A DNA stretch of 64,000 nt, taken from the NCBI GenBank assembly GCA_003225075.1, contig QIAP01000046.1:1-64000 (forward strand). Direction: 5' to 3'. The stretch comes from Acidobacteriota bacterium. Lineage in GTDB: Bacteria > Acidobacteriota > Terriglobia > Terriglobales > Acidobacteriaceae. The notes beneath the pieces are model-generated. The model worked only from the letters and a program-made list of their open reading frames with translations. It ran no database searches and was not told the origin of the DNA. The translations under genes were made by a program, and so were the position numbers. This document shows, one piece after another, positions 35,676 through 53,533 of the stretch; position 1 is the first letter of the stretch, and each line of letters opens with the position of its first letter.

Positions 35676-38354
35676 GTGGCGGAGACGCAGACAAACGGCT
35701 TGGAAGTTCTCGAAACCAGAGAATGGCTTGACTCTCTGGATTACGTACTGTCGAAAGGCGGACCGGATCGGGCCGGGAGGCTGCTGCAGCAGTTAGCGCT
35801 GCACGCCCGGCGCGCCGCCGGAGTCAACCTTCCCTTTACCGCAACGACTCCTTATCAGAACACCATCCCAGCGCGCCAGCAGCCCCCTTTCCCCGGCAGC
35901 CAGGAGATGGAGCGGCGCATCAAGAGCCTGGTTCGCTGGAATGCGCTGGCAATGGTGGTGCGCGCCAACAAGATTCAAGAGGGCATTGGCGGTCATATTT
36001 CCACCTATGCGTCTGCCGCCACGCTGTATGAAGTCGCTTTCAATCATTTCCTGCACGCGCGTAACGAGTCAGGCGATCGCGACATCGTCTATTTCCAGGG
36101 TCACGCTGCGCCGGGGATGTATGGGCGCGCCTACCTCGAAGGCCGCATCCCGAAACAAAAGCTGGAGAATTTTCGCCGCGAGTTGCGGCCCGGCGGCGGC
36201 CTTGCATCTTATCCGCATCCCTGGCTGATGCCTGATTTCTGGGAATTCCCCACTGTATCTATGGGGCTCGGACCGATCCAGGCAATTTATCAGGCGCGGT
36301 TCATCAAATATCTTGAGAATCGCGGGCTTAAGGAGTCGAGGGGCGGCAAGGTCTGGGCCTTTCTTGGTGACGGCGAAATGGATGAGCCCGAATCTCTGGG
36401 TTCAATCACTCTGGCCTCCCGCGAGAGATTAGACAATCTCATCTTCGTAGTGAACTGCAACTTGCAGCGCCTGGATGGCCCCGTCCGTGGCAATGGAAAG
36501 ATCATTCAAGAACTCGAGGCAATCTTCCGTGGCGCCGGCTGGAACGTGATCAAAGTCATCTGGGGTACCGATTGGGACAGTCTTATCCAGAACGATCGCG
36601 ACGGCTTGTTGGTGCGGCGTATGGGCGAAATCACGGACGGACAGTATCAGAAATACTTTGTCGAGAGCGGAGCGTACTTCCGCCAAAACTTCTTCGGCAC
36701 CGACCCTCGCCTGCTCAAGATGGTAGAGCATCTGTCGGACGAGCAACTGGCGCGCATGCGTCTCGGGGGTCACGATCCCATCAAAGTGCATGCAGGTTAT
36801 AAGGCGGCCGTTGAGCACACCGGGTCCCCGACCCTGATCCTGGCAAAGACAATCAAGGGATATGGTCTGGGAGAAGCCGGGGAAGGCAAGAACATTACTC
36901 ATCAGCAGAAGAAATTAAACGATGATGAGCTGCGTATTTTCCGCTCGCGCTTCGGGATTCCTATACCAGATGGCGAACTCCACGATGCGCCGTTCTACCG
37001 GCCGTCCGACGACAGTGCCGAAATCCAATACATGCAGGAAAGGCGTAGGCAACTCGGTGGCTATCTGCCGGAGAGAAAGGTTCGCTCCACTCCACTGAAA
37101 GCGGTGCCGGAGTCTCACTTTGAGGAGTTCTACAAGGGAACTGATGGCCGGGAAGCCTCCACCACCATGGTATTCGTGCGCCTGCTCTCGAAGTTGTTGC
37201 GTGATCCGGAAATTGGCAAGCTGATCGTTCCGATCATTCCGGATGAAGCGCGTACTTTCGGCATGGAGGCGCTATTCCGGCAGGTCGGTATTTACTCGAG
37301 CGTGGGTCAGCTCTACGAACCCGTCGACATGGATACGCTGCTCTATTACAAGGAAGCAAAAAACGGACAGATCCTGGAAGAAGGCATTACCGAAGCCGGA
37401 TCGATGTGCTCATTCATCGCCGCCGGCACCGCGTACGCCAATCATGGCATCAATACCATTCCCTTCTTCATTTACTACTCCATGTTTGGTTTCCAGCGCA
37501 TTGGCGACTTAATATGGGCCGCTGGCGATATGCGTTGTCGCGGCTTCCTGGTTGGTGGTACCGCCGGACGAACCACGCTTGCCGGCGAGGGACTGCAACA
37601 CCAGGACGGCCACAGTCACGTGCTGGCGCTCTCTTTACCCAACCTGCGGGCCTATGATCCAGCCTTCGCGTACGAGATCGCTGTCATCATCCAGGATGGC
37701 ATCAAGCGCATGTATGTGGATCAGGAGTCGGTCTTCTATTACCTGACTGTCACCAACGAACCGCTTCCCATGCCCGAAATGCCCAACGGGCGGAATGTCC
37801 GCGAAGGCATTCTCAAAGGTATGTATGCCTTCAAGTCTTCACAGAAAAAGGATGCCAAGCTGCACGCGCAGCTCCTCGGCAGCGGCACCATCATGTACGA
37901 AGTCCTTAAAGCACAGCAGATTCTGGAAGAGAAATATGGAGTTGCGGCTGACGTTTGGAGCGTAACCAGTTATAAAGAGCTTTATCGCGACGGCAACGAC
38001 TGCGAGCGGTGGAACATGCTGCATCCGGGCGCACCGCCGAAGGCGCCGTACGTGAGTCAGACGCTGAAAAACGCACCCGGCGTATTTGTCGCGGCATCGG
38101 ATTATATGAAGGTTCTGCCGGAAAGTATCGCGCAGTGGGTGCCGCGCCGCTTGGTCTGTTTGGGCACAGACGGGTTTGGACGCAGCGAGAATCGTGCTTC
38201 ATTGCGCGACTTTTTCGAAGTAGATGCCAAGCACGTTGTACTTGCAACTCTTACAGCCTTGCAGCGCGAACAACAGATCAAGCCGGAAGTGGTGCAGCAG
38301 GCAATTCGCGATCTGGGAATTAATCCGGAAAAACCCAACCCGGTCGTCAGCTAA
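35676..38354 (+). CDS. aceE: Pyruvate dehydrogenase E1 component, homodimeric type
   Basis: AceE (892 residues; the E. coli protein is 887) decarboxylates pyruvate with thiamine diphosphate and passes the acetyl group to E2. The ThDP site reads GDGEMDEPESLGS...VVNCNLQRLDGPV, the GDG-NCN motif of E1 enzymes. Other family blocks are IQEGIGGHISTYASAATLYE, QGHAAPGMYGRAYLEGR and RTTLAGEGLQHQDGHSH. It starts at GTG 35676 with GGA-type pairing about 12 bp upstream. It is first in an aceE-aceF-lpdA operon with 16- and 9-bp gaps, so all three subunits of the complex are co-expressed. Confidence 0.97.
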   Translation: MAETQTNGLEVLETREWLDSLDYVLSKGGPDRAGRLLQQLALHARRAAGVNLPFTATTPYQNTIPARQQPPFPGSQEMERRIKSLVRWNALAMVVRANKIQEGIGGHISTYASAATLYEVAFNHFLHARNESGDRDIVYFQGHAAPGMYGRAYLEGRIPKQKLENFRRELRPGGGLASYPHPWLMPDFWEFPTVSMGLGPIQAIYQARFIKYLENRGLKESRGGKVWAFLGDGEMDEPESLGSITLASRERLDNLIFVVNCNLQRLDGPVRGNGKIIQELEAIFRGAGWNVIKVIWGTDWDSLIQNDRDGLLVRRMGEITDGQYQKYFVESGAYFRQNFFGTDPRLLKMVEHLSDEQLARMRLGGHDPIKVHAGYKAAVEHTGSPTLILAKTIKGYGLGEAGEGKNITHQQKKLNDDELRIFRSRFGIPIPDGELHDAPFYRPSDDSAEIQYMQERRRQLGGYLPERKVRSTPLKAVPESHFEEFYKGTDGREASTTMVFVRLLSKLLRDPEIGKLIVPIIPDEARTFGMEALFRQVGIYSSVGQLYEPVDMDTLLYYKEAKNGQILEEGITEAGSMCSFIAAGTAYANHGINTIPFFIYYSMFGFQRIGDLIWAAGDMRCRGFLVGGTAGRTTLAGEGLQHQDGHSHVLALSLPNLRAYDPAFAYEIAVIIQDGIKRMYVDQESVFYYLTVTNEPLPMPEMPNGRNVREGILKGMYAFKSSQKKDAKLHAQLLGSGTIMYEVLKAQQILEEKYGVAADVWSVTSYKELYRDGNDCERWNMLHPGAPPKAPYVSQTLKNAPGVFVAASDYMKVLPESIAQWVPRRLVCLGTDGFGRSENRASLRDFFEVDAKHVVLATLTALQREQQIKPEVVQQAIRDLGINPEKPNPVVS

Positions 38355-38370
38355 GAAAGGTAACTGCTAA

Positions 38371-40218
38371 GTGACCGAATTCAAACTCCCTGAATTGGGA
38401 GAAAACATCGAACAGGGCGATCTTGTCCGCCTGTTGATCGCGCCCGGAGCGAACGTGACGGAGGGCCAATCCGTCATGGAACTCGAGACCGACAAGGCGG
38501 TGATTGAGGTGCCATCCTCGGTCAGCGGAACCGTCAAAGAAGTCCGCGTGAAGGAAGGCGACAAGCTAAAAGTTGGACAGGTAATCTTCACCGTCGAGAA
38601 CGGAACTGGCGCGAAGGCCCATGCTGCTTCACAGTCCAAGGCTGGTGAACCCAAAACTGCAGAGCCGAAGCCTGCAGAACCCAAAGCTTCAGACGAGAAG
38701 AATTCAGAAATAACCACACTGCACGCCTCATCTGAAACAGATGAGGCCGCGCCGTCTGAAGTGGTTACATCTGCAGCTTCGGTCGCCGACTGCGAAAAGA
38801 CCTCCGCGAGTGCGACCGCAATCCCCGGTCGGCGACGAGCCACCGACGTAGCTGGCGCTGGCATCTCGGAATTCAAGCTGCCGGAACTCGGCGAGAATAT
38901 CGAGCAGGGCGATCTGGTGCGTCTGATGATTTCGCCCGGCGTAATGGTTACCGAGGGCCAACCGATCATGGAGCTTGAAACTGACAAAGCTGTAGTCGAA
39001 GTCCCTTCGTCGGTCAGCGGACTGGTCAAAGAGGTAAAGGTCAAACAAGGAGAAACGGTCAAGGTCGGCCAGGTGATTTTCACGCTGGAAGGCAGCTCTG
39101 CGCCGGAGCCTGAGCGCCGACAGCAGCCGCACACCTCGCCCGTCGAGCACTTATCAGGTCAACAGGCGGCTCGACTGGCATTTCAAGCAGCGATTCACGC
39201 CGAAGGTAAGACCGAAGAGCAGGCTCTTCCTCGTGATAAGCCGGTTGCTGCGCCGCCGGTTTTTACCATGCCCGCCCAACTGGGCAAGGTCGCCGGTAGC
39301 GAGCATCGCGAACCGGTTCCAGCCGCACCTCATGTGCGGCGGCTGGCCCGCGAACTCGGTGTGGATATCCACGACGTCAAAGGCACCGGTCCCGGGGGCC
39401 GCATCAGTGAAGATGATGTGAAGGCCCACACCAAAGCGACTCTCGCGTCGGCCGTCACCGCGGCAACTCGTGCCGGACACTTTGTTGAGCCGGCGCTGCC
39501 GGATTTCGCCAAGTGGGGAAAGATCGAACGCGTCTCGATGCGCGGAATACGCCGCAAGACTGCCCAACATCTTGCGGAAGCTTGGAACACAATTCCGCAC
39601 GTCACCCAACACGACCGTGCGGATATCACGGAGCTTGAGCAGTTGCGTGCCCGCTTTGCGCCCAAGGCTGAAGAAGCGGGAGGCAAAATGACGGTTACCG
39701 CCATTGCACTCAAGGTCTGCGCATCCGCCCTGAAGATTTTCCCGCAATTCAATGCCTCGATTGATATGGGGAAGGAAGAGATCATTTACAAGCAGTACAT
39801 CAATATTGGCGTTGCCGTAGACACAGATCGCGGACTGCTTGTGCCAGTCATCCCGGAAGTGGACAAGAAGAACATCGTGGAACTCGCAGCCGAGCTCACG
39901 CAGCTCTCAAAAAAAGCTCGTGACAAGAAGCTTATGCCCGCAGAAATGGAAGGCGGCACATTTACCATCACGAACCTCGGCGGCATAGGGGGCACGGGAT
40001 TTTCGCCAATCGTGAATCATCCAGAAGTTGCAATCCTGGGCTTGTCGCGATCAAGCATGCAACCGGAGTGGATCAATGGCAAGTTTGAACCGCGGCTGGT
40101 ACTGCCGCTCTCGCTTTCGTACGATCATCGCCTCATTGATGGCGCTGACGCCGCCCGCTTCCTGCGCTGGATCGCGGAAGCGTTCGAACAACCTTTCCTT
40201 CTCTCTGTACAAGGTTAA
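38371..40218 (+). CDS. aceF: Pyruvate dehydrogenase E2, dihydrolipoamide acetyltransferase with two lipoyl domains
   Basis: This 615-residue E2 has two lipoyl domains (about 1-77 and 166-242). The lipoylated lysines K42 and K207 both lie in ELETDKAV. The linkers are rich in Ala, Pro and charged residues. An E3/E1-binding domain follows (about 319-353, PHVRRLARELGVDIHDVKGTGPGGRI), then the acetyltransferase core with the catalytic SYDHRLIDGADAARF near the end. The start is GTG 38371, with an AAAGG site upstream. The two lipoyl domains are nearly identical in their first 20 residues, pointing to an internal duplication; E. coli has three. Confidence 0.97.
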   Translation: MTEFKLPELGENIEQGDLVRLLIAPGANVTEGQSVMELETDKAVIEVPSSVSGTVKEVRVKEGDKLKVGQVIFTVENGTGAKAHAASQSKAGEPKTAEPKPAEPKASDEKNSEITTLHASSETDEAAPSEVVTSAASVADCEKTSASATAIPGRRRATDVAGAGISEFKLPELGENIEQGDLVRLMISPGVMVTEGQPIMELETDKAVVEVPSSVSGLVKEVKVKQGETVKVGQVIFTLEGSSAPEPERRQQPHTSPVEHLSGQQAARLAFQAAIHAEGKTEEQALPRDKPVAAPPVFTMPAQLGKVAGSEHREPVPAAPHVRRLARELGVDIHDVKGTGPGGRISEDDVKAHTKATLASAVTAATRAGHFVEPALPDFAKWGKIERVSMRGIRRKTAQHLAEAWNTIPHVTQHDRADITELEQLRARFAPKAEEAGGKMTVTAIALKVCASALKIFPQFNASIDMGKEEIIYKQYINIGVAVDTDRGLLVPVIPEVDKKNIVELAAELTQLSKKARDKKLMPAEMEGGTFTITNLGGIGGTGFSPIVNHPEVAILGLSRSSMQPEWINGKFEPRLVLPLSLSYDHRLIDGADAARFLRWIAEAFEQPFLLSVQG

Positions 40219-40227
40219 GAAAACATA

Positions 40228-41649
40228 ATGGCCGATACTTCGAACTTGCGCATCGCAGTCGCGGGCGGCGGGCCGGGAGGATACGCCGCCGCATTCCTCG
40301 CCGCCGACCTGGGTATGAAAGTCACGCTCATTGATCCCGAGGTGAACCCGGGCGGCGTCTGCCTCTATCGTGGATGCATTCCGTCAAAAGCCCTGCTTCA
40401 CGTTGCCAAACTGATTGAAGAATCGCATCAGGCAAAGGATTGGGGCATTGAATTCAGCAATCCGAAAATCGATCTTGGTCGCCTGCGTTCGTGGAAAGAG
40501 GGCGTCGTTAAAAAGCTTACTGGCGGTCTCGGTCAGCTTTCGAAACAGCGCTCTGTGCAATACATCCAGGGACGCGCCAGCTTTGAAAACTCCAACACAT
40601 TGAAAGTTGCGAAAACTAACGGCAATGAAACCCTGACTTTCGATCGCATCATCCTCGCTACAGGTTCACGTCCGGCTGTGATTCCAAGTTTAAAACTTGA
40701 TAGTGCACGAATGATGGATTCCACCGGCGCGCTTGACCTGCCGGATATTCCCAAGAGTCTTTTGGTAATTGGCGGTGGCTACATCGGACTGGAGCTTGGC
40801 TCGGTATACGCAACCCTGGGTACTCGAGTCACCGTGGTCGAAATGTTGCCGGGTTTGCTGCCAGGCGCGGATCGCGATCTGGTGCTTCCGCTGCACAAAC
40901 GCTTGGAAAAATTGTTCGAGACGATTCTGCTCAATACGACCGTGTCATCCTTGCGGGAAGAGAAGAGCGGAATTCGCGCCAGCTTCGAAGGCAAAGACGT
41001 TAAAGAGCGCGAGAAAGTTTTCGACAGAGTTCTGGTTTCAGTTGGCCGCAAACCCAATTCAGACATTGCCGGCTTGGAGAGAACGAAAGTTCAGCTAGGC
41101 CAGCGCGGTTTCGTCCGCGTGAACGAGCAGTTGCAGACCGACGATCCGTCCATTTACGCCATTGGCGACGTAGTTGGCGAACCCATGCTGGCGCACAAGG
41201 CTTCGCACGAGGGACGCACCGCAGTGGAGGCCATCGCGGCTCACAAAGTCGCATTTGAGCCGAATGCAATCCCCGCTGTCGTCTTTACTGATCCAGAAAT
41301 TGCCTGGGCTGGCCTCACCGAGACTAAAGCCAAAGAAGATGGTCGCGAGATCGCCGTCGCTAAATTTCCCTGGGGCGCATCGGGCCGTGCCATCACGCTC
41401 GACCGGCCAGAAGGCATGACCAAACTCATCGTGGACCCGAAAAGCGAGCGTGTCCTCGGCGTAGGGATCGTCGGAGTGGGCGCGGGAGAGTTAATTGCTG
41501 AAGGCGTTCTCGCCATCGAGATGTGCACGGTCGCGGCCGACCTGGCGCTCACGATTCATCCGCATCCCACGCTGTCAGAGACGCTGATGGAAGCTGCCGA
41601 AGTTTTTTACGGGCAGGCGACTGACATTTATCGGCCCAAGAAAAGTTAG
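40228..41649 (+). CDS. lpdA: Dihydrolipoyl dehydrogenase (E3)
   Basis: The flavoprotein (473 residues) reoxidises the lipoyl groups of E2 with NAD+. The N-terminal FAD site is [19 protein letters not shown]. The redox disulfide is C45-C50 ([17 protein letters not shown]), the NAD site is [12 protein letters not shown], and the C-terminal active His-Glu pair lies in [15 protein letters not shown]. It closes the pyruvate dehydrogenase operon 9 bp after aceF. It may also serve other 2-oxoacid complexes. Confidence 0.97.
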
Positions 41650-41803: not shown

Positions 41804-42400
41804 CTACGACTCCCGCCAGCGCTTCGACCACCATCGCAGGATCAAATGCGTGGGGCAATAAACAGCGAGCGGCACCGCGATCAGATAGCACAGCAGATAG
41901 ACCGGACCAGAAACGACATGTTGTTCGCGATAAAAAAGTCCGCGCACCCAGTTGACATTGTGCTCTGGACGCCAGAAGTAGTTGATTGGCGCGACGATCC
42001 AAGTGGTCAGTGTCTGATACTTCCAGCCCCGTTCGTCATAGCCCAAACGACGGATGGCCCAAAGCAGCAGCGGCGGCGTCACCACATGGAACAGGCTCAG
42101 CAACCGGATGAACAGCGGCACGGCTGGATCAAACATGAATTCCGTGCCGCCGATGAAGTGCTTTCCGAACAGGAGCGCAGGCAAGAGATCAAGCGTGAAC
42201 AGGGTCTGAAAGAGCAGCAGTCCAGTTGCCTGCCAGGAGAAGAGGAGCGCGCTCTCCGTCCACAGCGCGATTGCGATGAAGAAATTTCCCAGGTCGCAGA
42301 AGTAAAGGAAGTTCTGCGCGCCATATTGTTTCCAGTAAAACGGTGCCCAGGCCACCACCCAGAGGGTCCAACCCAGCTTGAGCCAAAGCGGCAGGCGCAT
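41804..42400 (-). CDS. Polytopic membrane protein of unknown function
   Basis: The 198-residue protein is strongly hydrophobic, with about five or six membrane helices: LWLKLGWTLWVVAWAPFYW, LGNFFIAIALWTESALLFSWQA, LFIRLLSLFHVVTPPLLLWAI and VVSGPVYLLCYLIAVPLAVY among them. It has a conserved-looking aromatic NYFWRPEHNVNWVRGLFYREQ loop. I do not recognise an assigned activity. The start is the ATG at 42400, since the upstream TTG at 42424 would add only eight polar residues; neither has a clear ribosome site. It is divergent from the receiver-TonB gene. Confidence 0.65.
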   Translation of the reverse strand: MRLPLWLKLGWTLWVVAWAPFYWKQYGAQNFLYFCDLGNFFIAIALWTESALLFSWQATGLLLFQTLFTLDLLPALLFGKHFIGGTEFMFDPAVPLFIRLLSLFHVVTPPLLLWAIRRLGYDERGWKYQTLTTWIVAPINYFWRPEHNVNWVRGLFYREQHVVSGPVYLLCYLIAVPLAVYCPTHLILRWWSKRWRES

Positions 42401-42519
42401 GGCCGCAATTCTACTCGGGGACAAGGCTCATTTCGCGCGAGGCTAGGCTTCGGAAATCGTCTGTCCACTTACCAGGGTAACTTGTTGCTGATCACGTTAC
42501 TTTCGTAGCATCGGACAAT

Positions 42520-44235
42520 ATGGCTATTCGCGCGTTGGTGCTCAGCGGCGATGAGAAAGCTGTGCTCGCCGTGACTCAGATCCTCGATGAACTCGAGATC
42601 GCTTTCGAACACTCCACCGAGACGACTTTCGGGATTAAAAGGCTCGCGAACCAGCGCTTCGATCTGATTCTGATTGATTGCGACAATGAGCAAAACGCGA
42701 CTCTGATTTTCAATTGCATCCGCGGCTCGGCTCTTAACAAAGTCGTCATTGCGATTGCGATTGTGGACGGCAGAGGTGGCGTTCCCACCGCATTCCGTCT
42801 TGGGGCCAGCCTGGTGGTCACGAAGGCGGTGGCCCTCGAACAAGCTAGAAGCACGCTGCGAACCGCGTTGGGAATGTTGCGAAAAGAAACCAACGAGGTC
42901 CGTACAACTGTCACACCCGCGGTGACGGCAAATGCCGCGACATCTGATCGTGCTGAGGATCTCTTAACGGACCGATATGCGGTTCCGCAGCCGGCCCCCG
43001 ATGGAGATCACGAAAAACAGGCGGAGGCAACAATTTCTGATGGCTCTTCTCCGCAGTTGCCGGCGCCAAACTCTGGGTGCGACGTGGAGCCTGCGCTGCC
43101 GCCTGCTGCTGCAGTATCTGAGCGGCCCACAACAGCGGATACTCCGACTGTTGATACAGGCACGAAAGTCGTTCCATTCCAGGCAAGATCACAGAGAAAA
43201 GAAAGCGCGATGGCACGGGGGCAAGAGGCTGCGCCTCCCGCTCCGATTCCAATAAAACCTGCACTGTTGCAGTCCTTCGATTCAGTCGCTCCAGAAACGG
43301 GAAAAGGGAGCGCAAAGCGAGTTTCGGATGAGAACATGTCTCGGGCGCGCAAGAGTCCGGCTCGCGGAAATAGAGTGTTAGCGCTGACGGCCGTTTCAGC
43401 AGTTCTAGTCGGGGCCGCGATCTGGGTGGCGTGGACTACTCAACCAAAATTCCGAGAACTCTTGGCTTACGAGTACGTACAACTGAAACTGCAGATCGCG
43501 GGACTACGCCTGCAAGAGCTGTCACTTCCCTCTACGAAACAGATTCCTGCGCATCCTCTCCCGCAGGCAGCACCATCTGAATTGCCGCCATCGCAAACAG
43601 CGCAAGCTTCCTCAACGGAATTAACTCAACCTGGTGCGACTGATGCGACCGCGACGAATGTCGCCGCACCTAATGTCGCTGGACCTAATCTGGCTGCACC
43701 AGAGGAAGCTTCGGCGGCCGATTCCGGCCCAGCGCGCCTCAATCCGCCTCAACCTGTGAAGACGACCGATGAAGGAAGCGTTTCGAAGGCGAGCCACCCG
43801 GTTGTGAAAGATAGCGCGTTAACCGAAGGTGTGCGATCGTCGCCGTCTTCGTCGTCGCATAATCTGAAACACACCGTGGCAGCGGGCAAGTCTGCCGGGG
43901 GCACACTTCTGGCCACAAGTTCAACGCAGAAAGCAGCGACCAAGGCAGGCGAACCCCTGGTGCTTTCTGAAGATGTCGCCGACGATAGCGTTGTGCGCCG
44001 GGTGCGTCCGGTTTATCCGAAGCTTGCACGGCAGAAGAAAGCGCACGGGCCGGTGTTGTTGCGGGTCGTGGTCGACAAGGAAGGTAGAGTTGACACGGTT
44101 CAAGTCCTCGAAGGGTCTACTCTCTTAGCGCAATCGGCGGTGGATGCCGTGAAACAGTGGCGTTACCGACCCTACCTGCACCGTGGCGAAGCGGTGGTTT
44201 TCCAAACTAAGGTCAGCGTGCACTTTCTGCCCTAG
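42520..44235 (+). CDS. Receiver-like domain fused through one TM helix to a TonB C-terminal domain (copy 1)
   Basis: This 571-residue protein joins three parts that rarely meet. Residues about 1-120 resemble a CheY-type receiver, with an acidic D11 after the first strand, D53 at the end of the third (FDLILIDCDN) and K102 (SLVVTKAV); the usual Thr/Ser is not evident. A long Pro/Ala-rich linker contains one membrane helix at about 287-305 (VLALTAVSAVLVGAAIWVAW). The C-terminal 80 residues are a TonB domain (VRPVYPKLARQKKAHGPVLL...AVKQWRYRP). Topology should put the receiver in the cytoplasm and the TonB domain in the periplasm. I infer that a phospho-signal or partner could regulate energy transfer to outer-membrane receptors. 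No ExbB/ExbD is coded nearby. A paralogue follows directly. Confidence 0.8.
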   Translation: MAIRALVLSGDEKAVLAVTQILDELEIAFEHSTETTFGIKRLANQRFDLILIDCDNEQNATLIFNCIRGSALNKVVIAIAIVDGRGGVPTAFRLGASLVVTKAVALEQARSTLRTALGMLRKETNEVRTTVTPAVTANAATSDRAEDLLTDRYAVPQPAPDGDHEKQAEATISDGSSPQLPAPNSGCDVEPALPPAAAVSERPTTADTPTVDTGTKVVPFQARSQRKESAMARGQEAAPPAPIPIKPALLQSFDSVAPETGKGSAKRVSDENMSRARKSPARGNRVLALTAVSAVLVGAAIWVAWTTQPKFRELLAYEYVQLKLQIAGLRLQELSLPSTKQIPAHPLPQAAPSELPPSQTAQASSTELTQPGATDATATNVAAPNVAGPNLAAPEEASAADSGPARLNPPQPVKTTDEGSVSKASHPVVKDSALTEGVRSSPSSSSHNLKHTVAAGKSAGGTLLATSSTQKAATKAGEPLVLSEDVADDSVVRRVRPVYPKLARQKKAHGPVLLRVVVDKEGRVDTVQVLEGSTLLAQSAVDAVKQWRYRPYLHRGEAVVFQTKVSVHFLP

Positions 44236-44330
44236 GGAAGCGATTTCCGGGTCCTCCTTCTTCTATCTGTCTCAATTCGACATTACCTCCGTAACTTGCT
44301 GGCCCTGAGAAGGTTACCTAGGATTACCGC

Positions 44331-46142
44331 ATGGGTTACCAAGCGCTTCTGTTCTGTCCGGACGAGAAGATCGCGCGTGTGGTCACGCACGTTCTGAGCG
44401 ACCTGGAATTCAGCATCGAAACTGCGACTGAACCATTTGCCGCGGTCAAGAAGCTGATGGCGCAACATTTCGACGCCATCGTGGTTGACTGTGAGAACGA
44501 GCAGAATGCCACTCTGGTCTTCAAGAGCGCACGGAATTCAAGCTCCAACCAAGCATCGCTAGCGGTTGCAGTTGTAGAAGGGCAAGCCGGGGTGGCCAAG
44601 GCCTTCCGAATCGGCGCCAACCTGGTGTTGACCAAGCCAATCAACGTGGAACAGGCCAAGGGCACGCTGCGTGTGGCGCGTGGATTGTTGCGCAAAGGCT
44701 CAGAATCCGCCAAGTCTTCGCCGGCTGCAACAGCAGGTCCGCCGGTGCAATCTGCCCAAACCCAAGCTGCGCAAACCCAAGCTGCGAGGGCGGATTCGCT
44801 GCGCACGTCCCCTCAAGATTCGATGCTGCCAAAGGCAAAATTTCAGGTTCCAAAAACCGCGACGCCGGAAACTAATCCCGCGGGTGCTTCTACAAGCGGC
44901 TTCGAACTGGGGAAGAATTCAAGTTCCCAGGCGGCTGCAAGCGAAGCTGCCATGTCTGACTCGAATTCGAGTGCGGGACCTGCCTCCGCGCATCAATCAT
45001 CTGACAAGGAGCGCAACACCTCCAAGAACTTCCCGTGGCAACGGGCGTCCAAAGACAGCACTGGGCCGGTAGCGACTCCGGAAGCTTCGCCGGTGGAGCA
45101 ACCCTCGCGTCCATTCATGGCTTCGGCGTCTCACGGGCAAGCGGCAGCGACTGCTCCTGCCAGGGAAAAACCCACTAGTGTGACTGCCTCCGCAAGCGAA
45201 ATTCAGCGTCTGGCAAACACCGTCGTCTTCGAAAGCGGAGCACAAGTCCGTCCGCCCGCAGTTTTCGGGGCGAGCGCTCCTGCTCCATCGCTTTCAACAC
45301 GCCGCTCTGAGGACGCCGGAAAAGAATCGGGCGGGAGTAGCAAGATCTTACTAGCGCTCGTCGCCATTCTGGTGATGGCAGTCGCCGGCTATTTTGGGTG
45401 GACAGAAACCCACGGTAAAGCAGGGAAATCAGCGGCAGGTGTAAAGCAAGTAACGATACCGACCGTGCCCCAACCCAGCGCGGCACAAGACGCAGCTATT
45501 CCGCAGATCAAAGACCAGACCGGTAATGTGCCGGCGGAAAGCCAAGCCGGGCATAAAGGCGGAACAACCGCAACAAAGAGTGCGACCCCTGGCTCAAAAC
45601 CGAGCGCCGCAATAGCCAGCGGAAATAAACCTGACGCCAAGGCGGCATCTGCTGAGAGCGACGTAACTGTGACCAACATTGAGCCGATGGTAGTCACGAA
45701 TGATGTCAAGCGACACTCTCCGGCTGTCTCGCAAGCTCAGCCAGATGTGCCGGTGCCCAATGCTCTGAACATTGCAGGTGGATCGGGTGCGGACAAGGAA
45801 ATCTCCAACATCATGACGTCCACACCGGTGAGTGTCCCCAAGCCTGTCCCTCAGTCTATAAAAGTGTCACAAGGAGTCTCTCAAGGCCTGCTGATTAAGA
45901 AAGTGCAGCCCAGCTATCCAGCTCAGGCACTGGCTATGCGGATGCAAGGCGCGGTTCAACTGCAAGCGACGATCAACAAGGACGGCAGCGTCAGCAATCT
46001 GAAAGTACTAAGCGGCGAAGCCATCTTGTCCCGTGCAGCGATGGATGCGGTGCGCCAATGGAAATACAAACCCTATTTTCTCAATGGTGAACCGGTAGAG
46101 ATTCAGACCCAGATTGTAGTGAATTTCAAGCTTCCCAATTAG
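44331..46142 (+). CDS. Receiver-like domain fused through one TM helix to a TonB C-terminal domain (copy 2)
   Basis: The 603-residue paralogue has the same order: a receiver-like N-domain (D11, D53 in AIVVDCENEQNA, K102 in LVLTKPIN), a Ser/Ala/Pro-rich linker, one membrane helix at about 343-361 (KILLALVAILVMAVAGYFGW), a second linker, and a TonB domain. The TonB domain spans the last 80 residues (VQPSYPAQALAMRMQGAVQL...AVRQWKYKPYFLNGEP). The receiver parts of the two copies share stretches such as DC-NEQNATL-F, while the linkers have diverged. The regions upstream of both genes also share a GTAACTTG-TG element, so the duplication included the control region. The 95-bp gap suggests co-transcription or a separate promoter. 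Confidence 0.8.
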   Translation: MGYQALLFCPDEKIARVVTHVLSDLEFSIETATEPFAAVKKLMAQHFDAIVVDCENEQNATLVFKSARNSSSNQASLAVAVVEGQAGVAKAFRIGANLVLTKPINVEQAKGTLRVARGLLRKGSESAKSSPAATAGPPVQSAQTQAAQTQAARADSLRTSPQDSMLPKAKFQVPKTATPETNPAGASTSGFELGKNSSSQAAASEAAMSDSNSSAGPASAHQSSDKERNTSKNFPWQRASKDSTGPVATPEASPVEQPSRPFMASASHGQAAATAPAREKPTSVTASASEIQRLANTVVFESGAQVRPPAVFGASAPAPSLSTRRSEDAGKESGGSSKILLALVAILVMAVAGYFGWTETHGKAGKSAAGVKQVTIPTVPQPSAAQDAAIPQIKDQTGNVPAESQAGHKGGTTATKSATPGSKPSAAIASGNKPDAKAASAESDVTVTNIEPMVVTNDVKRHSPAVSQAQPDVPVPNALNIAGGSGADKEISNIMTSTPVSVPKPVPQSIKVSQGVSQGLLIKKVQPSYPAQALAMRMQGAVQLQATINKDGSVSNLKVLSGEAILSRAAMDAVRQWKYKPYFLNGEPVEIQTQIVVNFKLPN

Positions 46143-46532: not shown

Positions 46533-49085
46533 TTATTCGCGTTGCATAGGTTCGTCGATCACAACCTTACCGCGTTTTTCCACATTCACCACCCGATGGA
46601 TGGGTTTGTATCCGGAGAGAGTAATGTCAACGATGTAGTTGCCTTGATTGAGCATGAATTCCACGGGCGAGGTCTTATCCAGCATGCGCCGGTTGACGCT
46701 TACCTGGGCTCCTTTTGGCTGGGTCTTGATGTTGATCGTGCCCATGTCAGCCGTGCTGTCTCCACCGCCCTTGAAAAACTTCTTGAATTTGCCAACCGTT
46801 TTGATGTCGTCTACGTTGCCAAGCACCCGGAGTGCGGGAGCGAAATGGAATGTCTGACCGGCTTGAAGATCTGCGGTTGTGGTTTCGTCCAGGTAACCCT
46901 GCTTCCTGACAAGGAAGGTATGCGTCCCCTTGTCCACGGTGATCTGGGTGGGAGTGGCTCGTCCGCTATCCTTGCCGTCAACGAAAACTGACGCGCCTGC
47001 GGGCTGGGTGTTCAGGGAAACCGTAGCTGCGATTTGGGCGAGGTGGACTACCAAAAATGATTTGCTGCCCGAAGTCACATCGACGCTGCGAGTTTCAGAA
47101 GCGTATCCGTTCTTGACGATGCTCACGCTATGGGCACCGGGAGTTAGGCCAGCAAGATTGTAGGGCGTGACCCAGCCGGGATCGGTGCGGCCATCGATGC
47201 GTACCTGAGCGCCTTCCGGAGTGGAATCTACGGTCAGTTGTCCGGGAATCAAGGCCACTTTGGCCGGCACTGGGGCTCGGGACTTGCGAGTTTTATAGCG
47301 CGGTCTCACCACCGGCTCAGGCTGTGGGACGGTTGGTTCAGCCTCCACCTGGGTGATGACTCGAGGAGGGGTAACGGCATGAGCCGGTACCGGACGGGCC
47401 TGAGGCTGAATTGTCGCCGACGCCGAAGCAGAACTGACGGATGCCGGGGTGCCTTCATCATCCGCGTTTTGCGAATGCAGGTGGTAAGCGATAGCTAACG
47501 TGATGAACAGAACCAGGGCAACTGCGCCCGAAACGGAGTACATCATCAATTTCGGCGGAACGCCCTTGATCGCCGTGATGGCTTTCTTGGCTACTTCGCG
47601 AGGCTGTACCTTGGGCTTTTCCGGCTGGCTCCGCGCCAGGAAAACGGCAGGAGGGGCTGCGGGGATGTTCTCAACATCGGCTGACTCGGCTGGTTTGGAA
47701 GCCGGCAGAAACACCTCTTTGAGTGGCGGAAGTTCTTCCAGATCGGAGAAGCTCACCGGCTTCTTCGTTCCCGGGGCGTCTCCTGCCATCATGGGATCAA
47801 CCGCGAACGTCGGCTCTACGCCAGTCTCGGGGCTCACGGCGGCGGACATTTGCGCTGCTTTCTCCTGGCTGTCTTTCTCCTGACTTTCGAGCGCCTCCAC
47901 CGAGGCCTTGACGCATGCACTGATGAATGGGGCGCTGGGGTCTAATTTCGCCATCTTGGGAGTGATTGACGAAGCTGCCGTCACGCCGATACCTGCTGCC
48001 GCTGCCGCCGCCTTGTCAGGAGAAGATGAGTTCTTGGCTGTGGATTCAGGTTTGGCGATGGCTGAAACCGCTTTTGCCACCGGCTTCGCGACGGGCGCCG
48101 CCTGCTGCGGCGATTTGGGTTCCAGTTTTTGAACTCCCGCGGATTGTTGCTTGACTGCGGGCTGGCCAGTGAACTTGGCTTGCGCCGCTGCGACATCCTT
48201 AGCGGGAAGATTCTTGCTCGTAACCCCTTGGGCCTGAGCGGGCGCACTGGTCTTTGCCGGCTGGGTGGTGGCCTGCTTGCACTTCTCCAATTCATTGACC
48301 AGTTCTTGTCCGTTCTGGAAGCGCTCCGAAGGCGCTTTAGACAACGCCTTCATGATCAAATCGCTGACCGCGGGATGAATTTTCTTATTGATCTCGACGG
48401 GTGCGAGTGGAGTCTCTTGGAGAATTTTGTGGCGCACAGTTTCGACGTCCGCGCCTTCAAAGGCCTTGCGGTCCGTCACCATCTCATAAAGGACGCTGCC
48501 CCAGCTAAACAGATTGGAGCGTGCGTCGAGCGTTTCTCGCTGGACCTGCTCCGGGGATTCGTAATGCAGAGTGGCTGGGACTTTGCCGGACGACTCAGAT
48601 TCGAGCAGCCCCATGGTGGAAATGCCGAATCCTAGAATTTTGACGGTGCCATCCCATTGCACCATCACCTTGGCCGGTTCCAGACTGTAGTGGACGACTC
48701 CAGTGGCGTGCGCATGGTCCAGTCCCTGGCAGACTTGACGGCTGATATCCAGCAGATCCCAGATGGAAAACCCTTCCTGGCGCGCCAACATGGTTGCAAT
48801 ACTGTTGCCCTGCACATACTCCATGGCAGCGCAGAACAGGCCATCGATTTCCCCGGCGCCATAAAGCAGTGCGACATTCTGACTGTTAAGGGATTTGGTA
48901 CTTTCCGCCTCCGCCAGAATGCGCTCAACCAGCGCTTTCGCCTGCTCCTCCGGGATATCAGCGAGCCGAAGGGTTTTTAAAGCGACAGTTTGCCCGTTAG
49001 ATGGGTCGCTCGCCTTGTGGACAGAGCAGCGCTCTGATTTGGCGATTTCGCTCAGTACTTCGAAACGGCCAATTTTTGTCGACAT
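46533..49085 (-). CDS. Ser/Thr kinase-like protein (pseudokinase) with one TM helix and three PEGA domains
   Basis: Residues 8-268 have the bacterial Ser/Thr kinase fold, but catalytic motifs are lost. The glycine-rich loop is IAKSERCSVHKA. The HRDLKPxN loop reads HYSLEPAK (132-139, Asp replaced by S134). DFG is LGFG (152-154, Asp to Gly). The ATP-binding K37 (VALKTL), the SPE box (177-179) and helix F (FSWGSVLYEM) remain. A 240-residue Ala/Pro/Lys linker leads to a membrane helix (about 514-536). An external part then has three PEGA repeats (about 630-850): LTVDSTPEGAQVRIDGR, VSLNTQPAGASVFVDGK and INIKTQPKGAQVSVNRR. It most likely acts as a scaffold linking cell-wall or glycan sensing by PEGA to cytoplasmic partners. 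The adjacent receiver-TonB proteins are obvious candidates. Confidence 0.85.
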   Translation of the reverse strand: MSTKIGRFEVLSEIAKSERCSVHKASDPSNGQTVALKTLRLADIPEEQAKALVERILAEAESTKSLNSQNVALLYGAGEIDGLFCAAMEYVQGNSIATMLARQEGFSIWDLLDISRQVCQGLDHAHATGVVHYSLEPAKVMVQWDGTVKILGFGISTMGLLESESSGKVPATLHYESPEQVQRETLDARSNLFSWGSVLYEMVTDRKAFEGADVETVRHKILQETPLAPVEINKKIHPAVSDLIMKALSKAPSERFQNGQELVNELEKCKQATTQPAKTSAPAQAQGVTSKNLPAKDVAAAQAKFTGQPAVKQQSAGVQKLEPKSPQQAAPVAKPVAKAVSAIAKPESTAKNSSSPDKAAAAAAGIGVTAASSITPKMAKLDPSAPFISACVKASVEALESQEKDSQEKAAQMSAAVSPETGVEPTFAVDPMMAGDAPGTKKPVSFSDLEELPPLKEVFLPASKPAESADVENIPAAPPAVFLARSQPEKPKVQPREVAKKAITAIKGVPPKLMMYSVSGAVALVLFITLAIAYHLHSQNADDEGTPASVSSASASATIQPQARPVPAHAVTPPRVITQVEAEPTVPQPEPVVRPRYKTRKSRAPVPAKVALIPGQLTVDSTPEGAQVRIDGRTDPGWVTPYNLAGLTPGAHSVSIVKNGYASETRSVDVTSGSKSFLVVHLAQIAATVSLNTQPAGASVFVDGKDSGRATPTQITVDKGTHTFLVRKQGYLDETTTADLQAGQTFHFAPALRVLGNVDDIKTVGKFKKFFKGGGDSTADMGTINIKTQPKGAQVSVNRRMLDKTSPVEFMLNQGNYIVDITLSGYKPIHRVVNVEKRGKVVIDEPMQRE

Positions 49086-49804: not shown

Positions 49805-50956
49805 ATGACCCTCACTCGCTTCGTGACGAAGAATGCATTTCGCAACAAGCGTCGCAGCGTGCTGACGGTTGCCAGCATCGGATTCTCTTTGCTATTGCTC
49901 ACTGTCATGATGACTATTTGGCATGCCTTCTATATGAGCGAGGGCAGTGCCGAATCGGCGCAGCGTTTGATCACGCGACATAAGGTGTCGCTCGGGTTCT
50001 TCTTGCCTGCTTATTATGGGGAAAAGATTCGTGCTCTTCCGGGAGTCAAGCAGGTGGTGAACGAAAGCTGGTTTGGGGGACAGTATAAGGACGACAAGCC
50101 GGCAAATTTCTTTGCGCAGTTCGGCACAGATCCGCAGGGACTCATGCAAGTCTATCCGGAGTTCCGCATGCCTGATGACCAATTGGAAGCGTGGAAACGA
50201 GACCGCGCAGGCTGCATTGTGGACGCTGAACTGGCCAGGAAACACGGCTGGAAAATAGGAGACCGCGTGTACATCAAGGGGACCATCTTTCCCCTGAACC
50301 TTGACCTCACCATCCGCGGCATGTTCACCGGGTCTCGCCCGACGGAAACCGTCTACTTCAATAACACGTATCTGGAGGAAGGCTACCCGCACGTCAAAGG
50401 CCACGTGGGATTCTTTGCCGTGCTGGCGGACTCACCAGCGGCGGTGCCTAAAGTGGCCAGGGAAATAGATGATGAGTTCCGCAACGCGCCTCGTGCTACG
50501 AAGAGTGAGAGCGAAAAAGCATTTCAGCTCGACTGGATCGCCATGCTGGGCAACGTCAAGGCTTTCATTCTCAGCATTTGTATGGCGGTGGTATTTGCCA
50601 CTCTGCTGGTTTCGGCGAATACCATGGCTATGTCGATTCGCGAGCGCACCCGAGAGGTCGCGCTGCTGAAGACTCTCGGGTTCACGCGCGCTGCGGTATT
50701 GGGATTGTTCGTCAGTGAAGGAGTGAGCCTATCGCTGGCGGGGGGCCTGTTGGGGGCTTTGGCGGCCTCTGGGTTGGTCACGCTCATGGCGCACTCTCCG
50801 CAGACCGGTCTTTTTTTGGCAGGCATGCGGGTTACGGTGCCCACCATGTTGGTAGCATTGGGTGTGGCAGGGATGGTGGGGTTCATCAGCACGTTTGTGC
50901 CCTCTTATCATGCGTCCCAGATCAACATCGTGGATGGTCTGCGTCATATTGGCTGA
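49805..50956 (+). CDS. FtsX/MacB-type ABC permease (copy 1)
   Basis: The 383-residue permease has the standard four-helix plan: one N-terminal helix (SVLTVASIGFSLLLLTVMMTIW), a periplasmic MacB-like domain (about 50-250), then three helices of the FtsX domain (AFILSICMAVVFATLLVSANTMAM, LGLFVSEGVSLSLAGGLLGALAAS and TMLVALGVAGMVGFISTFVPSYHAS). The coupling helix carries ERTREVALLKTLGFTR. It should pair with the ATPase at 54974. The gene at 51209 is a close paralogue of it, similar even at DNA level over the first 60 bases. Confidence 0.9.
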   Translation: MTLTRFVTKNAFRNKRRSVLTVASIGFSLLLLTVMMTIWHAFYMSEGSAESAQRLITRHKVSLGFFLPAYYGEKIRALPGVKQVVNESWFGGQYKDDKPANFFAQFGTDPQGLMQVYPEFRMPDDQLEAWKRDRAGCIVDAELARKHGWKIGDRVYIKGTIFPLNLDLTIRGMFTGSRPTETVYFNNTYLEEGYPHVKGHVGFFAVLADSPAAVPKVAREIDDEFRNAPRATKSESEKAFQLDWIAMLGNVKAFILSICMAVVFATLLVSANTMAMSIRERTREVALLKTLGFTRAAVLGLFVSEGVSLSLAGGLLGALAASGLVTLMAHSPQTGLFLAGMRVTVPTMLVALGVAGMVGFISTFVPSYHASQINIVDGLRHIG

Positions 50957-50980
50957 GCGGAAGATCTGAAGACCGCAAAA

Positions 50981-51014
50981 AAAGCTCGGGGGCAAAGTCT
51001 ATCGTGCGAGCTTT
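50981..51014. terminator. Possible hairpin between the two permease paralogues
   Basis: AAAGCTCG and CGAGCTTT form a perfect 8-bp stem with an 18-nt loop. There is an A-tract before it but only a short T-run after, so it would end transcription better on the minus strand. Weak evidence. Confidence 0.3.
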
Positions 51015-51208
51015 CATGTCGTGACAGTTGACATTTGTTGTACCCGGGGACTTCAACTCAAGCCTAAAAACGGGAGGGCAATGCCGTGTCCGCACGGCAA
51101 AATACCGAGGCTTGTTGAGTTTTCAACCATGTTCTATGCTGTACGTAATAATATCGGGGCTGCCCCTCCCGATTGATCTAACCGTTCGTCATCTCTCGGA
51201 ATACGATT

Positions 51209-52351
51209 ATGACCCTAACCCGCTTTGTGACGAAAAATGCTTTTCGCAATAAGCGCCGCACGGTGTTGACCGTGCTGAGCATCGGTGTTTCTCTGTTGTT
51301 GCTCACCTTTATGATGACGGTCTGGCGAAGCTTTTATATTGATCAGGGAACCGTCCAGGCAGCCCAGCGTTTGATTGTGCGTCACAAGGTTTCGCTTGTT
51401 TTCAACCTGCCGGGATTTTACCGGGAGAAAATCCGGGCCATCCCAGGTGTGACACACGTAGTGAACGAGCAGTGGTTTGGCGGGCTATACAAAGACGACA
51501 AGCCAGAAAACTTTTTTGCCCAGTTTGGCACCGATCCTCAAGAATTATTGAGTGTATATCCCGAAGCCCGCATACCGGCAGAACAAGTCGAAGCGTGGCA
51601 GCATGATCGCGCCGGGGCGATCGTAGATTCGGAATTAGTCAAGAAATACAAGTGGAAAATTGGCGATCGGCTGAACATTAAGGGGACAATTTTCCCGCTC
51701 AACCTTGAACTGACCATCCGGGGAATCTTCACGGCACCCACCCCGACCCAGACGATCTACTTTAACAAGACTTATCTGGATGAAGGCTACGCGCAAGTTA
51801 AAGGATCGGAGGGAGTCTTTGCGGTGTTGGTGGATACTCCGGAGGACGTGCCCCGGGTCGCTAAAGCCATTGACGAGGAATTCCGTAACGCGCCCCGTCC
51901 TACCAAGAGCGAAAGCGAACGAGCCTTCCAACTCGGCTTTATACAGATGCTCGGCAATGTGAAAGCGTTCATCCTGAGTATTTGCCTGGCGGTGGTTTTC
52001 GCGATTTTGCTGGTATCAGCAAATACCATGGCCATGTCCATCCGTGAGCGCACGCGCGAGGTTGCGTTGTTGAAGACTCTGGGATTCACTCGCCGCAAAA
52101 TTCTGGGGCTGTTTGTGGGTGAGGCGGTTTCACTGGCAGTCCTGGGTGGTGTGCTGGGCACGCTGGCTGCCTTCGTCCTGGTGGGTGGAATGGCCCGTCA
52201 GGGTGGATTCTTAACCGGCATGAGAGTAACTCCGCCCACGATGCTGGTGGCTTTGCTGGTGGCGGCGCTAGTGGGATTCGTCAGCGCATTTTTGCCGTCT
52301 TACCACGCCTCCCGGGTCAACATCGTGGACGGCTTGCGTCACATCGGCTGA
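51209..52351 (+). CDS. FtsX/MacB-type ABC permease (copy 2)
   Basis: This 380-residue protein is collinear with copy 1 from the first residue (MTLTRFVTKNAFRNKRR in both) to the last (IVDGLRHIG). It has the same MacB-like periplasmic domain and FtsX helices, including SIRERTREVALLKTLGFTRRK. Blocks such as FFAQFGTDPQ and KSESE-AFQL are shared. The two look like a tandem duplication followed by moderate divergence, and could form a heterodimer. A 19-bp gap joins it to the third permease. Confidence 0.9.
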   Translation: MTLTRFVTKNAFRNKRRTVLTVLSIGVSLLLLTFMMTVWRSFYIDQGTVQAAQRLIVRHKVSLVFNLPGFYREKIRAIPGVTHVVNEQWFGGLYKDDKPENFFAQFGTDPQELLSVYPEARIPAEQVEAWQHDRAGAIVDSELVKKYKWKIGDRLNIKGTIFPLNLELTIRGIFTAPTPTQTIYFNKTYLDEGYAQVKGSEGVFAVLVDTPEDVPRVAKAIDEEFRNAPRPTKSESERAFQLGFIQMLGNVKAFILSICLAVVFAILLVSANTMAMSIRERTREVALLKTLGFTRRKILGLFVGEAVSLAVLGGVLGTLAAFVLVGGMARQGGFLTGMRVTPPTMLVALLVAALVGFVSAFLPSYHASRVNIVDGLRHIG

Positions 52352-52369
52352 GAGAAACAAGGAATAGAG

Positions 52370-53533
52370 ATGGCGATTCCACTGAGTTATAACGTGCGGA
52401 ACCTGCGGTTGCGCAAGGGCTTGACCGTCATGACCGCTCTCGGTATCGCGCTCACCGTCGCCACTGCAGTTTTTATTATGGCGCTTCTGGCGGGTCTGAA
52501 CCGCGCATTTGGGGCCACGGGCGATTCACTCAACGTGCTGGTGTTGCGGAAGGGGTCGACCTCGGAACTCGCCGCTGGAGGTGTGCAGCGGGATGCTCTG
52601 CAAGTTATTAAGGATCTGCCTGGCGTGGCCAAGAACAATCATGGCGAGCCGTTGGTTTCCGGCGAGGACATTCTGGTGATCGTTCTCCCTCGCAAAGACG
52701 GTACCGGAGAAGTGAACGTTACCACCCGCTTTCTGACTCCGCTCGGAATCGAGATGCGTCCCAAGGTACACCTCATCGCCGGACGATGGTTTACTCCCGG
52801 GCAGCGGGAAGTGGTGGTTAGCAAGTCCATCAGCCAGCGTTTCGCCAAGACTAACATTGGCGACCAAATGCGGATCGGGAATGGGGACTGGAACGTCGTT
52901 GGCATCTTCGATGCAAACGGCACGGCGCATGAGTCCGAGATCTGGGGTGATATCAACCAGCTTGCCACCGACTTCGAGCGCACCGTGTATTCGTCGGTAC
53001 TGCTGCGAGCGACTGATCCGGTATCCGCCGATGCTTTGAAAAACCGTGCTAACGATGATCAGCGGCTGGAACTTAATGGAATGTTGGAACCGGATTACTA
53101 TGCCTCACAAACCAAGTCAGGCGCGCCCATTAAGTTCGTCGGGATCATCGTGGCTATCATCATGGCCGTAGGTTCAAGTTTCGCCGCCATGAATACCATG
53201 TATGCCGCGGTCGCGTACCGTGGGAGGGAGATCGCCACCTTACGGGTAATTGGATTTTCACGTCCCAGCATCTTGACGTCGTTCGTTCTCGAATCGCTTC
53301 TCCTGTCTTTGCTGGGCGCGATCGGCGGCATTGTTCTGATGTTGCCTTTTAACGGCATGACTACGGGAACCTCGAACCAGGTGACATTCAGCGAAGTCGT
53401 CTTCAGCCTGCGGATGACTCCGGCTGTAGTAGTCACCGCGATCACATTCGCGGTTGCGATGGGCTTGCTCGGAGGTTTGGCACCAGCGTGGCATGCTGCT
53501 CGCCAAGACATTCTGGCGGCGCTACGGGGTTAA
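52370..53533 (+). CDS. FtsX/MacB-type ABC permease (third, divergent)
   Basis: The 387-residue permease has the same fold but is clearly distinct from the two upstream copies. It starts MAIPLSYNVRNLRLRKGLTV, has an N-terminal helix (ALGIALTVATAVFIMALLAGL), a periplasmic domain with VSKSISQRFAKTNIGDQMRI, and an FtsX end with YRGREIATLRVIGFSRPSIL. Three different permeases beside one ATPase mean that at least two alternative permease pairings are possible. The ribosome site AAGGAA lies 7 bp before the ATG. Confidence 0.9.
   Translation: MAIPLSYNVRNLRLRKGLTVMTALGIALTVATAVFIMALLAGLNRAFGATGDSLNVLVLRKGSTSELAAGGVQRDALQVIKDLPGVAKNNHGEPLVSGEDILVIVLPRKDGTGEVNVTTRFLTPLGIEMRPKVHLIAGRWFTPGQREVVVSKSISQRFAKTNIGDQMRIGNGDWNVVGIFDANGTAHESEIWGDINQLATDFERTVYSSVLLRATDPVSADALKNRANDDQRLELNGMLEPDYYASQTKSGAPIKFVGIIVAIIMAVGSSFAAMNTMYAAVAYRGREIATLRVIGFSRPSILTSFVLESLLLSLLGAIGGIVLMLPFNGMTTGTSNQVTFSEVVFSLRMTPAVVVTAITFAVAMGLLGGLAPAWHAARQDILAALRG

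Follow-up and report, generated by a model that had tools for sequence, protein, structure and literature searches.

Two tandem receiver-TonB_C proteins of an acidobacterial genome as candidate TonB-like tethers outside the ExbBD motor

The common view of TonB is that of an energy transducer controlled by receptor demand, and a TonB-type protein with a signalling module on its cytoplasmic side raises the question of what would be controlled, and by which input. Two adjacent genes, here called A and B, pose this question in the window, by which we mean the whole analysed stretch of 64,000 nucleotides from contig QIAP01000046.1 of the Acidobacteriaceae assembly GCA_003225075.1. The original prediction held that both products join a receiver to a TonB domain, and that TonB function could thereby be switched from the cytoplasm through phosphorylation or binding. 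We tentatively favour a different explanation, in which A and B would be bitopic inner-membrane proteins acting as a TonB-like tether independent of the usual ExbBD motor, controlled or read out via a cytoplasmic docking domain. The features concerned, all on the forward (+) strand, are the following.

42520..44235, +, protein A, 571 aa: degenerate receiver, linker, transmembrane helix (TM), linker, TonB_C (open reading frame list, Pfam, TM prediction)
42520..42885, +, A receiver-like domain, residues 1-122 (D53 codon 42676-42678, K102 codon 42823-42825)
43375..43431, +, A transmembrane helix, residues 286-304, without the motor-docking signature S-x3-H/Q/E
44005..44226, +, A TonB_C domain (Pfam)
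44331..46142, +, protein B, 603 aa, architecture as in A; of the two, the constant member
44331..44699, +, B receiver-like domain, residues 1-123 (D53 codon 44487-44489, K102 codon 44634-44636)
45345..45401, +, B transmembrane helix, residues 339-357, without S-x3-H/Q/E
45846..45896, +, B conserved segment preceding TonB_C (SQGVSQGLL), also in the ExbBD-linked TonB encoded on contig C62 of the same genome
45906..46133, +, B TonB_C domain with TonB-type C-terminal domain (CTD) fold (best Z 11.5, to TonB bound to FoxA, 6i97)

Both open reading frames were recovered in tandem on the same strand, separated by 95 bp, at exactly the coordinates first proposed. Each encodes a receiver-like domain of about 122 residues, a low-complexity linker, one predicted membrane helix (286-304 in A, 339-357 in B), a second linker and a C-terminal TonB_C domain, and TM prediction and Pfam thus bear out the architecture originally described for them. 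TonB_C scored 64.9 bits in A and 74.8 bits in B (cut-off 24.6), and Response_reg was matched in both at scores under the Pfam cut-off of 30.2 bits (12.7 and 24.1, respectively). An origin of the pair in chance or mis-called reading frames was rejected, since the frames are exact and N-domains of the B type, at 66-100% identity, recur in 73 of 300 genomes of the family (a hand count of rows at E <= 4.5e-46).

Orthologues were assembled in two sets, in which near-identical genomes may count twice because two genome collections overlap. The B set comprises 45 open reading frames, with duplicate loci (L004, L009, L010, L017), frames open at the 5' end and identical sequences removed; three of these frames are without TonB_C, one holding a run of unknown bases (L083), one meeting the end of its stretch (L106) and one being 487 aa long (L097). 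The A set comprises 13 loci, with TonB_C inside the frame in 11; the A of L086 is without it and that of L080 is cut by unknown bases. A helix was predicted in 12 of the 13, the A of L072 having none above threshold. The rows of alignments A1 (28 rows) and A2 (26 rows) were chosen from these sets.

That the N-domain is receiver-like, a point on which the original prediction had staked its signalling claim, is upheld by the fold. Residues 1-123 of B were modelled as a (beta-alpha)5 fold from the 28-row alignment, with a predicted local distance difference test (pLDDT) of 91.5 and a predicted template modelling score (pTM) of 0.87. A Foldseek search with this model returned receivers (best 7c1j, E 1.3e-6; FrzS, 2i6f, also, E 1.5e-5), and VIA-align gave its best score to DivK (1mav; Z 18.0, root-mean-square deviation (rmsd) 1.9 A over 116 residues). 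The fold was modelled for B only; the N-domain of A is 48% identical to it over the domain and, as the query of a single-sequence search of the PDB, gave no significant match (best E 0.093).

D53 and K102, both noted in the original prediction, which tied its signalling claim to the conservation of D53 as well, are invariant in 42/42 B and 13/13 A orthologues. What had been overlooked is that further key residues of the receiver are lost, as is the motor-docking signature of the helix. In both a profile alignment to RssB and a MAFFT alignment that includes canonical receivers, the first Mg-binding acid corresponds to residue 10, the second to D11 and the switch Thr to A80; by MAFFT, the switch aromatic corresponds to residue 99. 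Among the 42 B sequences, residue 10 is Pro in 41 and Ser in one, residue 11 is Asp or Glu in 41 and Gln once, residue 80 is Ala in 40 and Gly in two, and residue 99 is Val or Leu; in A the corresponding residues are Pro/Gly/Ala/Ser, Asp (13/13), Ala (13/13) and Ile/Val. Of the two Mg-binding acids of a receiver, A and B have therefore lost the first and kept the second, and they carry neither the switch Thr/Ser nor the switch aromatic. Pfam coordinates shift the register by one, which would put C9-P10 at the Mg acids, both lost; the P10/D11 register, given by the profile hidden Markov model and by MAFFT, was adopted in view of the conservation of D11 among paralogues, 12 of 13 degenerate rows having an acidic residue there. 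As judged from sequence and model, the N-domains of A and B are degenerate receivers.

Phosphorylation of D53 may be possible, but the residues that would couple it to a response are lost, and protein contact is therefore the likelier input. The strong conservation of the N-domain, far above that of any other part of the proteins, makes a cytoplasmic regulatory input of this kind plausible. Mean column identity in B is 0.89 for the N-domain, 0.72 for TonB_C and 0.34 and 0.35 for the linkers; in A the N-domain reaches 0.83, against 0.62 and 0.37. The alpha4-beta5-alpha5 surface is the usual partner face of receivers, and in B these elements stand at 0.96 (alpha4), 1.00 (beta5) and 0.96 (alpha5). 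Of the cytoplasmic switching originally proposed, contact thus remains plausible, whereas phosphorylation as the main mechanism, acting on an energised TonB, is made less likely by the lost receiver residues and the missing helix signature.

The domain also has a distinct phylogenetic identity. In a tree of 109 domains, 75 of degenerate type were separated from 34 others, mainly canonical receivers, with split support of 100/100; A and B each formed a clade, their sister relation being weak (85/44). Domain labels in this tree were assigned by regular expression and are crude, the class 'oth' including L046 and L047, which are PilZ proteins by Pfam. Strong matches (E <= 1e-15) occurred in 4 of 199 genomes drawn across the phylum and in 30 of 150 drawn across the order, all of them in the family of the window, and in 111 of 300 drawn within that family; named records with matches are Terriglobia, Acidobacteriaceae and Candidatus Sulfotelmatobacter genomes. 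In the surveys made, the clade appears to be specific to this one acidobacterial family. In the window's own genome the B N-domain has 13 matches (E <= 0.01), and Pfam scans of ten of its proteins with a related domain found PilZ in eight and a canonical receiver-GGDEF arrangement in one, the tenth being a split paralogue on C126 with no second domain.

At the opposite end, residues 504-603 of B were modelled as a TonB CTD (pLDDT 90.5). The best solved matches are TonB CTDs, the first being 6i97 (FoxA-bound; Z 11.5, rmsd 1.6 A, 86 residues), and TolA entries reach Z <= 7.1, so that the TonB_C domain has the TonB-type fold expected of TonB transducers. The B CTD is 61% identical to that of the C62 TonB, whose gene adjoins those of ExbB and two ExbD proteins, and the preceding SQGVSQGLL segment is common to both; the CTD of A is more distant (34%). 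Plug was matched 20 times in the genome, 16 of them over the cut-off, in agreement with the predicted abundance of TonB receptors.

The membrane helix tells a different story. In E. coli, TonB and TolA dock on ExbB and TolQ via the Ser and His of an S-x3-H pattern, the SHLS motif (PMC12215075). TonB-type proteins of this genome have H, Q or E at the last signature position. The genome's 25 TonB_C matches were sorted into ten proteins with a short N-terminal part (short-N), seven with a long one (long-N), one split paralogue and seven small proteins or proteins with no clear helix. S-x3-H/Q/E lies in the helix of all ten short-N TonB/TolA-type proteins with a clear helix (one of them TolA, the tenth being C126:67666) and in that of none of the seven long-N proteins (A, B, two GAF proteins, the PilZ and kinase proteins, and L006 on C129); should L006 start later, as it may, the split becomes 10/11 short-N versus 0/6 long-N. 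By our own arithmetic the Fisher probability of the 10 versus 7 split is 1/19448, for a grouping made post hoc, and that of an 8 versus 7 split is 1.6e-4. When the helix segments of nine of the ten were shuffled, the motif arose with a probability of 0.03-0.25 each. Two of the seven small or unclear proteins (L008, L129) match the pattern outside any convincing membrane helix.

Among orthologues, the signature is found in 0/13 A proteins and is missing from 40/42 B proteins, the remaining two matching outside the helix core. Even with H, Q or E allowed, then, A and B lack the Ser-x3-His of TonB transducers. The pattern of the D-box for ExbD (PMC10907165) found no match, nor did it on the genome's own ExbBD-linked TonB, which served as control, and no conserved segment directly follows the B helix. 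As had been remarked, neither exbB nor exbD lies beside A and B in the window: the window is on C72, and the genome's MotA/ExbB and ExbD matches are on C62 and C120. This non-adjacency is a weak point, because exb genes and tonB are often, not always, found together (PMC12204202). The ExbD/TolR match at G000:C120:48066-48428 contains one TAA stop.

The same chassis carries other cytoplasmic modules in this genome. GAF-TM-TonB_C proteins are encoded on C120 and C152 (L005, L049), a kinase-TM-TonB_C protein on C83 (L061) and a PilZ-TM-TonB_C protein on C6 (L131). A third degenerate-receiver-TM protein, the split paralogue on C126 (G000:C126:9135-10986; L050 4136-5987, minus strand), has its TonB_C in another frame, an offset that may reflect assembly error, mutation or recoding; an intact protein of this type exists in the relative G084 (L053, 667 aa), and the third protein of G084 matches the signature pattern (SRRSE) in the flank of its helix. 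It is possible, if doubtful, that the family carries a motor-independent TonB-like class with a common chassis (TM, linker, TonB_C) and exchangeable modules (degenerate receiver, PilZ, GAF, Ser/Thr kinase). Such proteins would connect cytoplasmic signalling, probably through c-di-GMP, directly with receptors of the outer membrane, acting as regulated decoys or as sensors of occupancy.

For A and B themselves, the tether that we favour would work as follows. The N-domain would lie in the cytoplasm and serve as a protein-docking module, not as a phosphorylation switch, localising or gating the protein; its partners would probably belong to the c-di-GMP circuitry of the cell, a proposal made because the closest relatives of the N-domain are fused to PilZ domains. 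The plain helix would anchor a passive, receptor-type TonB end, the position or availability of which would be set by whatever docks on the cytoplasmic domain. The CTD would cross the periplasm and bind the inner ends of receptors (TonB boxes) or pair with TonB itself, as may be proposed because of its close identity with the CTD of the ExbBD-linked TonB on C62. Since the type of CTD is shared, competition with the powered TonB, or the holding of receptors, is conceivable. The most likely net effect would be that of a signal-placed passive tether or competitor deciding which receptors the powered TonB reaches, whichever way the signal runs.

Some observations weigh against this explanation. 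Firstly, D11, D53 and K102 are all kept, and a pure docking domain would not need them. Secondly, the signature rule is looser here than in E. coli, because the C62 ExbBD-linked TonB (L001 1000-1740, G000:C62) carries S-x3-Q, not S-x3-H, and helices of other kinds may likewise be acceptable to this lineage's motor. Thirdly, because TonB_C domains are so numerous in this genome, receptor binding by the B CTD can be proposed only from similarity.

The alternative that survives best, which we nonetheless judge unlikely, is an outside-in sensor whose TonB_C domain samples occupied receptors by their exposed TonB boxes and whose cytoplasmic domain reports to c-di-GMP or other effectors. Its parts are identical to those of the tether, the other modules found on this chassis (GAF, PilZ, kinase) look signalling-like, and it too would account for an N-domain that is the most conserved part; the linkers flanking the helix are, however, long and unconserved (0.34-0.35), and would make a poor rod for a transmembrane conformational signal. 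A structural tether from the inner membrane to some other periplasmic or outer-membrane partner, unrelated to receptors, seems improbable. TonB_C is common enough in this genome, occurring also in small proteins whose only helix resembles a signal peptide, for such a role to be considered, but the B CTD and its SQGVSQGLL segment match the ExbBD-linked TonB too closely (61%) to favour it. Energised TonBs, with coupling to ExbBD switched by D53 phosphorylation, are quite improbable: the conserved D11, D53 and K102, the TonB-type CTD, the presence of ExbBD elsewhere in the genome and the 20 Plug matches would all suit them, whereas S-x3-H/Q/E is missing from A, B and the helix core of all examined orthologues, the switch Thr, the aromatic and one Mg acid are lost, and the genes have no adjoining exbBD. 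Very unlikely, despite a similar overall plan (GltG of Myxococcus gliding is listed as combining an FHA domain with a TM and TonB_C, and AglR is among its binding partners; PMC3169522, PMC5349195), is a part in a GltG/GltJ-like envelope-spanning machine driven by a TolQR-type motor, since the genome has only two MotA/ExbB-family matches, one adjoining a TonB on C62 and the other a TolA-like protein on C120, and no glt-like cluster was noticed beside A and B, though no search was aimed at glt genes.

The genomic surroundings of the pair were compared as well. Synteny was counted over 25 B loci (the window, L052 and L065-L087), several of whose contigs end too early to tell: A lies just upstream of B in 14, among them L079, whose A is cut at the contig start and stands outside the set of 13, and lpd lies upstream in 17. 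On these counts B is the constant member of the pair and A optional. The upstream neighbours in the window (35676..41649, +) we take, from their sequences, to be aceE, aceF and lpd. A conserved operon partner was rejected; the interval between lpd and A holds other genes at some loci, and none emerged as obligatory. Downstream of B, in 12 of the 25 loci, lies a convergent gene:

46533..49085, -, Ser/Thr kinase followed by three PEGA repeats

A 206-aa hydrophobic protein with no Pfam match (41804-42424, minus strand) adjoins A or B in 9 of the 25 loci. Further along the window, three similar permease-like open reading frames, presumably of FtsX/MacB type, stand in tandem (49805-53533, plus strand).

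Taken singly, the ingredients are already known: there are degenerate receivers, TonB_C proteins that carry cytoplasmic domains, and fusions of receiver and PilZ. What appears to be new, as far as literature searches tell, is their combination, its spread over one family and the missing docking signature. No paper recognisable as describing a receiver-TM-TonB_C fusion came up in those searches, whose reach left most subscription papers outside, and the terms acidobacteri, PilZ and receiver are absent from the main text of PMC12204202. If our explanation is true, the TonB CTD would also serve as a signalling or gating contact between the cytoplasm and the outer membrane, and the helix signature would offer a simple means of sorting powered from unpowered TonB-like proteins in TonB_C-rich genomes such as this one, with its 25 matches.

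Known systems offer partial parallels. The ExbB-ExbD-linked TonBs of C62 and E. coli share with A and B the fold and sequence of the CTD, a single helix and a long periplasmic linker; unlike them, A and B have an additional N-terminal part of 285-338 residues with a receiver fold, a helix without S-x3-H/Q/E, and genes that are not beside exbBD. FrzS is not known as a TonB-type protein. Its atypical receiver, which binds neither Mg nor BeF3, resembles those of A and B in having lost a Mg acid and the switch Thr and kept the Lys (PMC1974792), but it has no Asp at the canonical site and retains the switch Tyr, whereas in A and B D53 is invariant and the aromatic is lost. GltG and GltJ correspond to A and B in their single TM, flexible periplasmic region and TonB_C, and GltG also in its N-terminal regulatory domain, which is FHA, not a receiver; they are encoded with the gliding cluster, and GltG has AglR as a binding partner (PMC3169522, PMC5349195). 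PixA of Myxococcus, lastly, combines a receiver and PilZ in one protein as the N-domain paralogues do, but places PilZ first and keeps its phosphorylation residues (PMC8316039).

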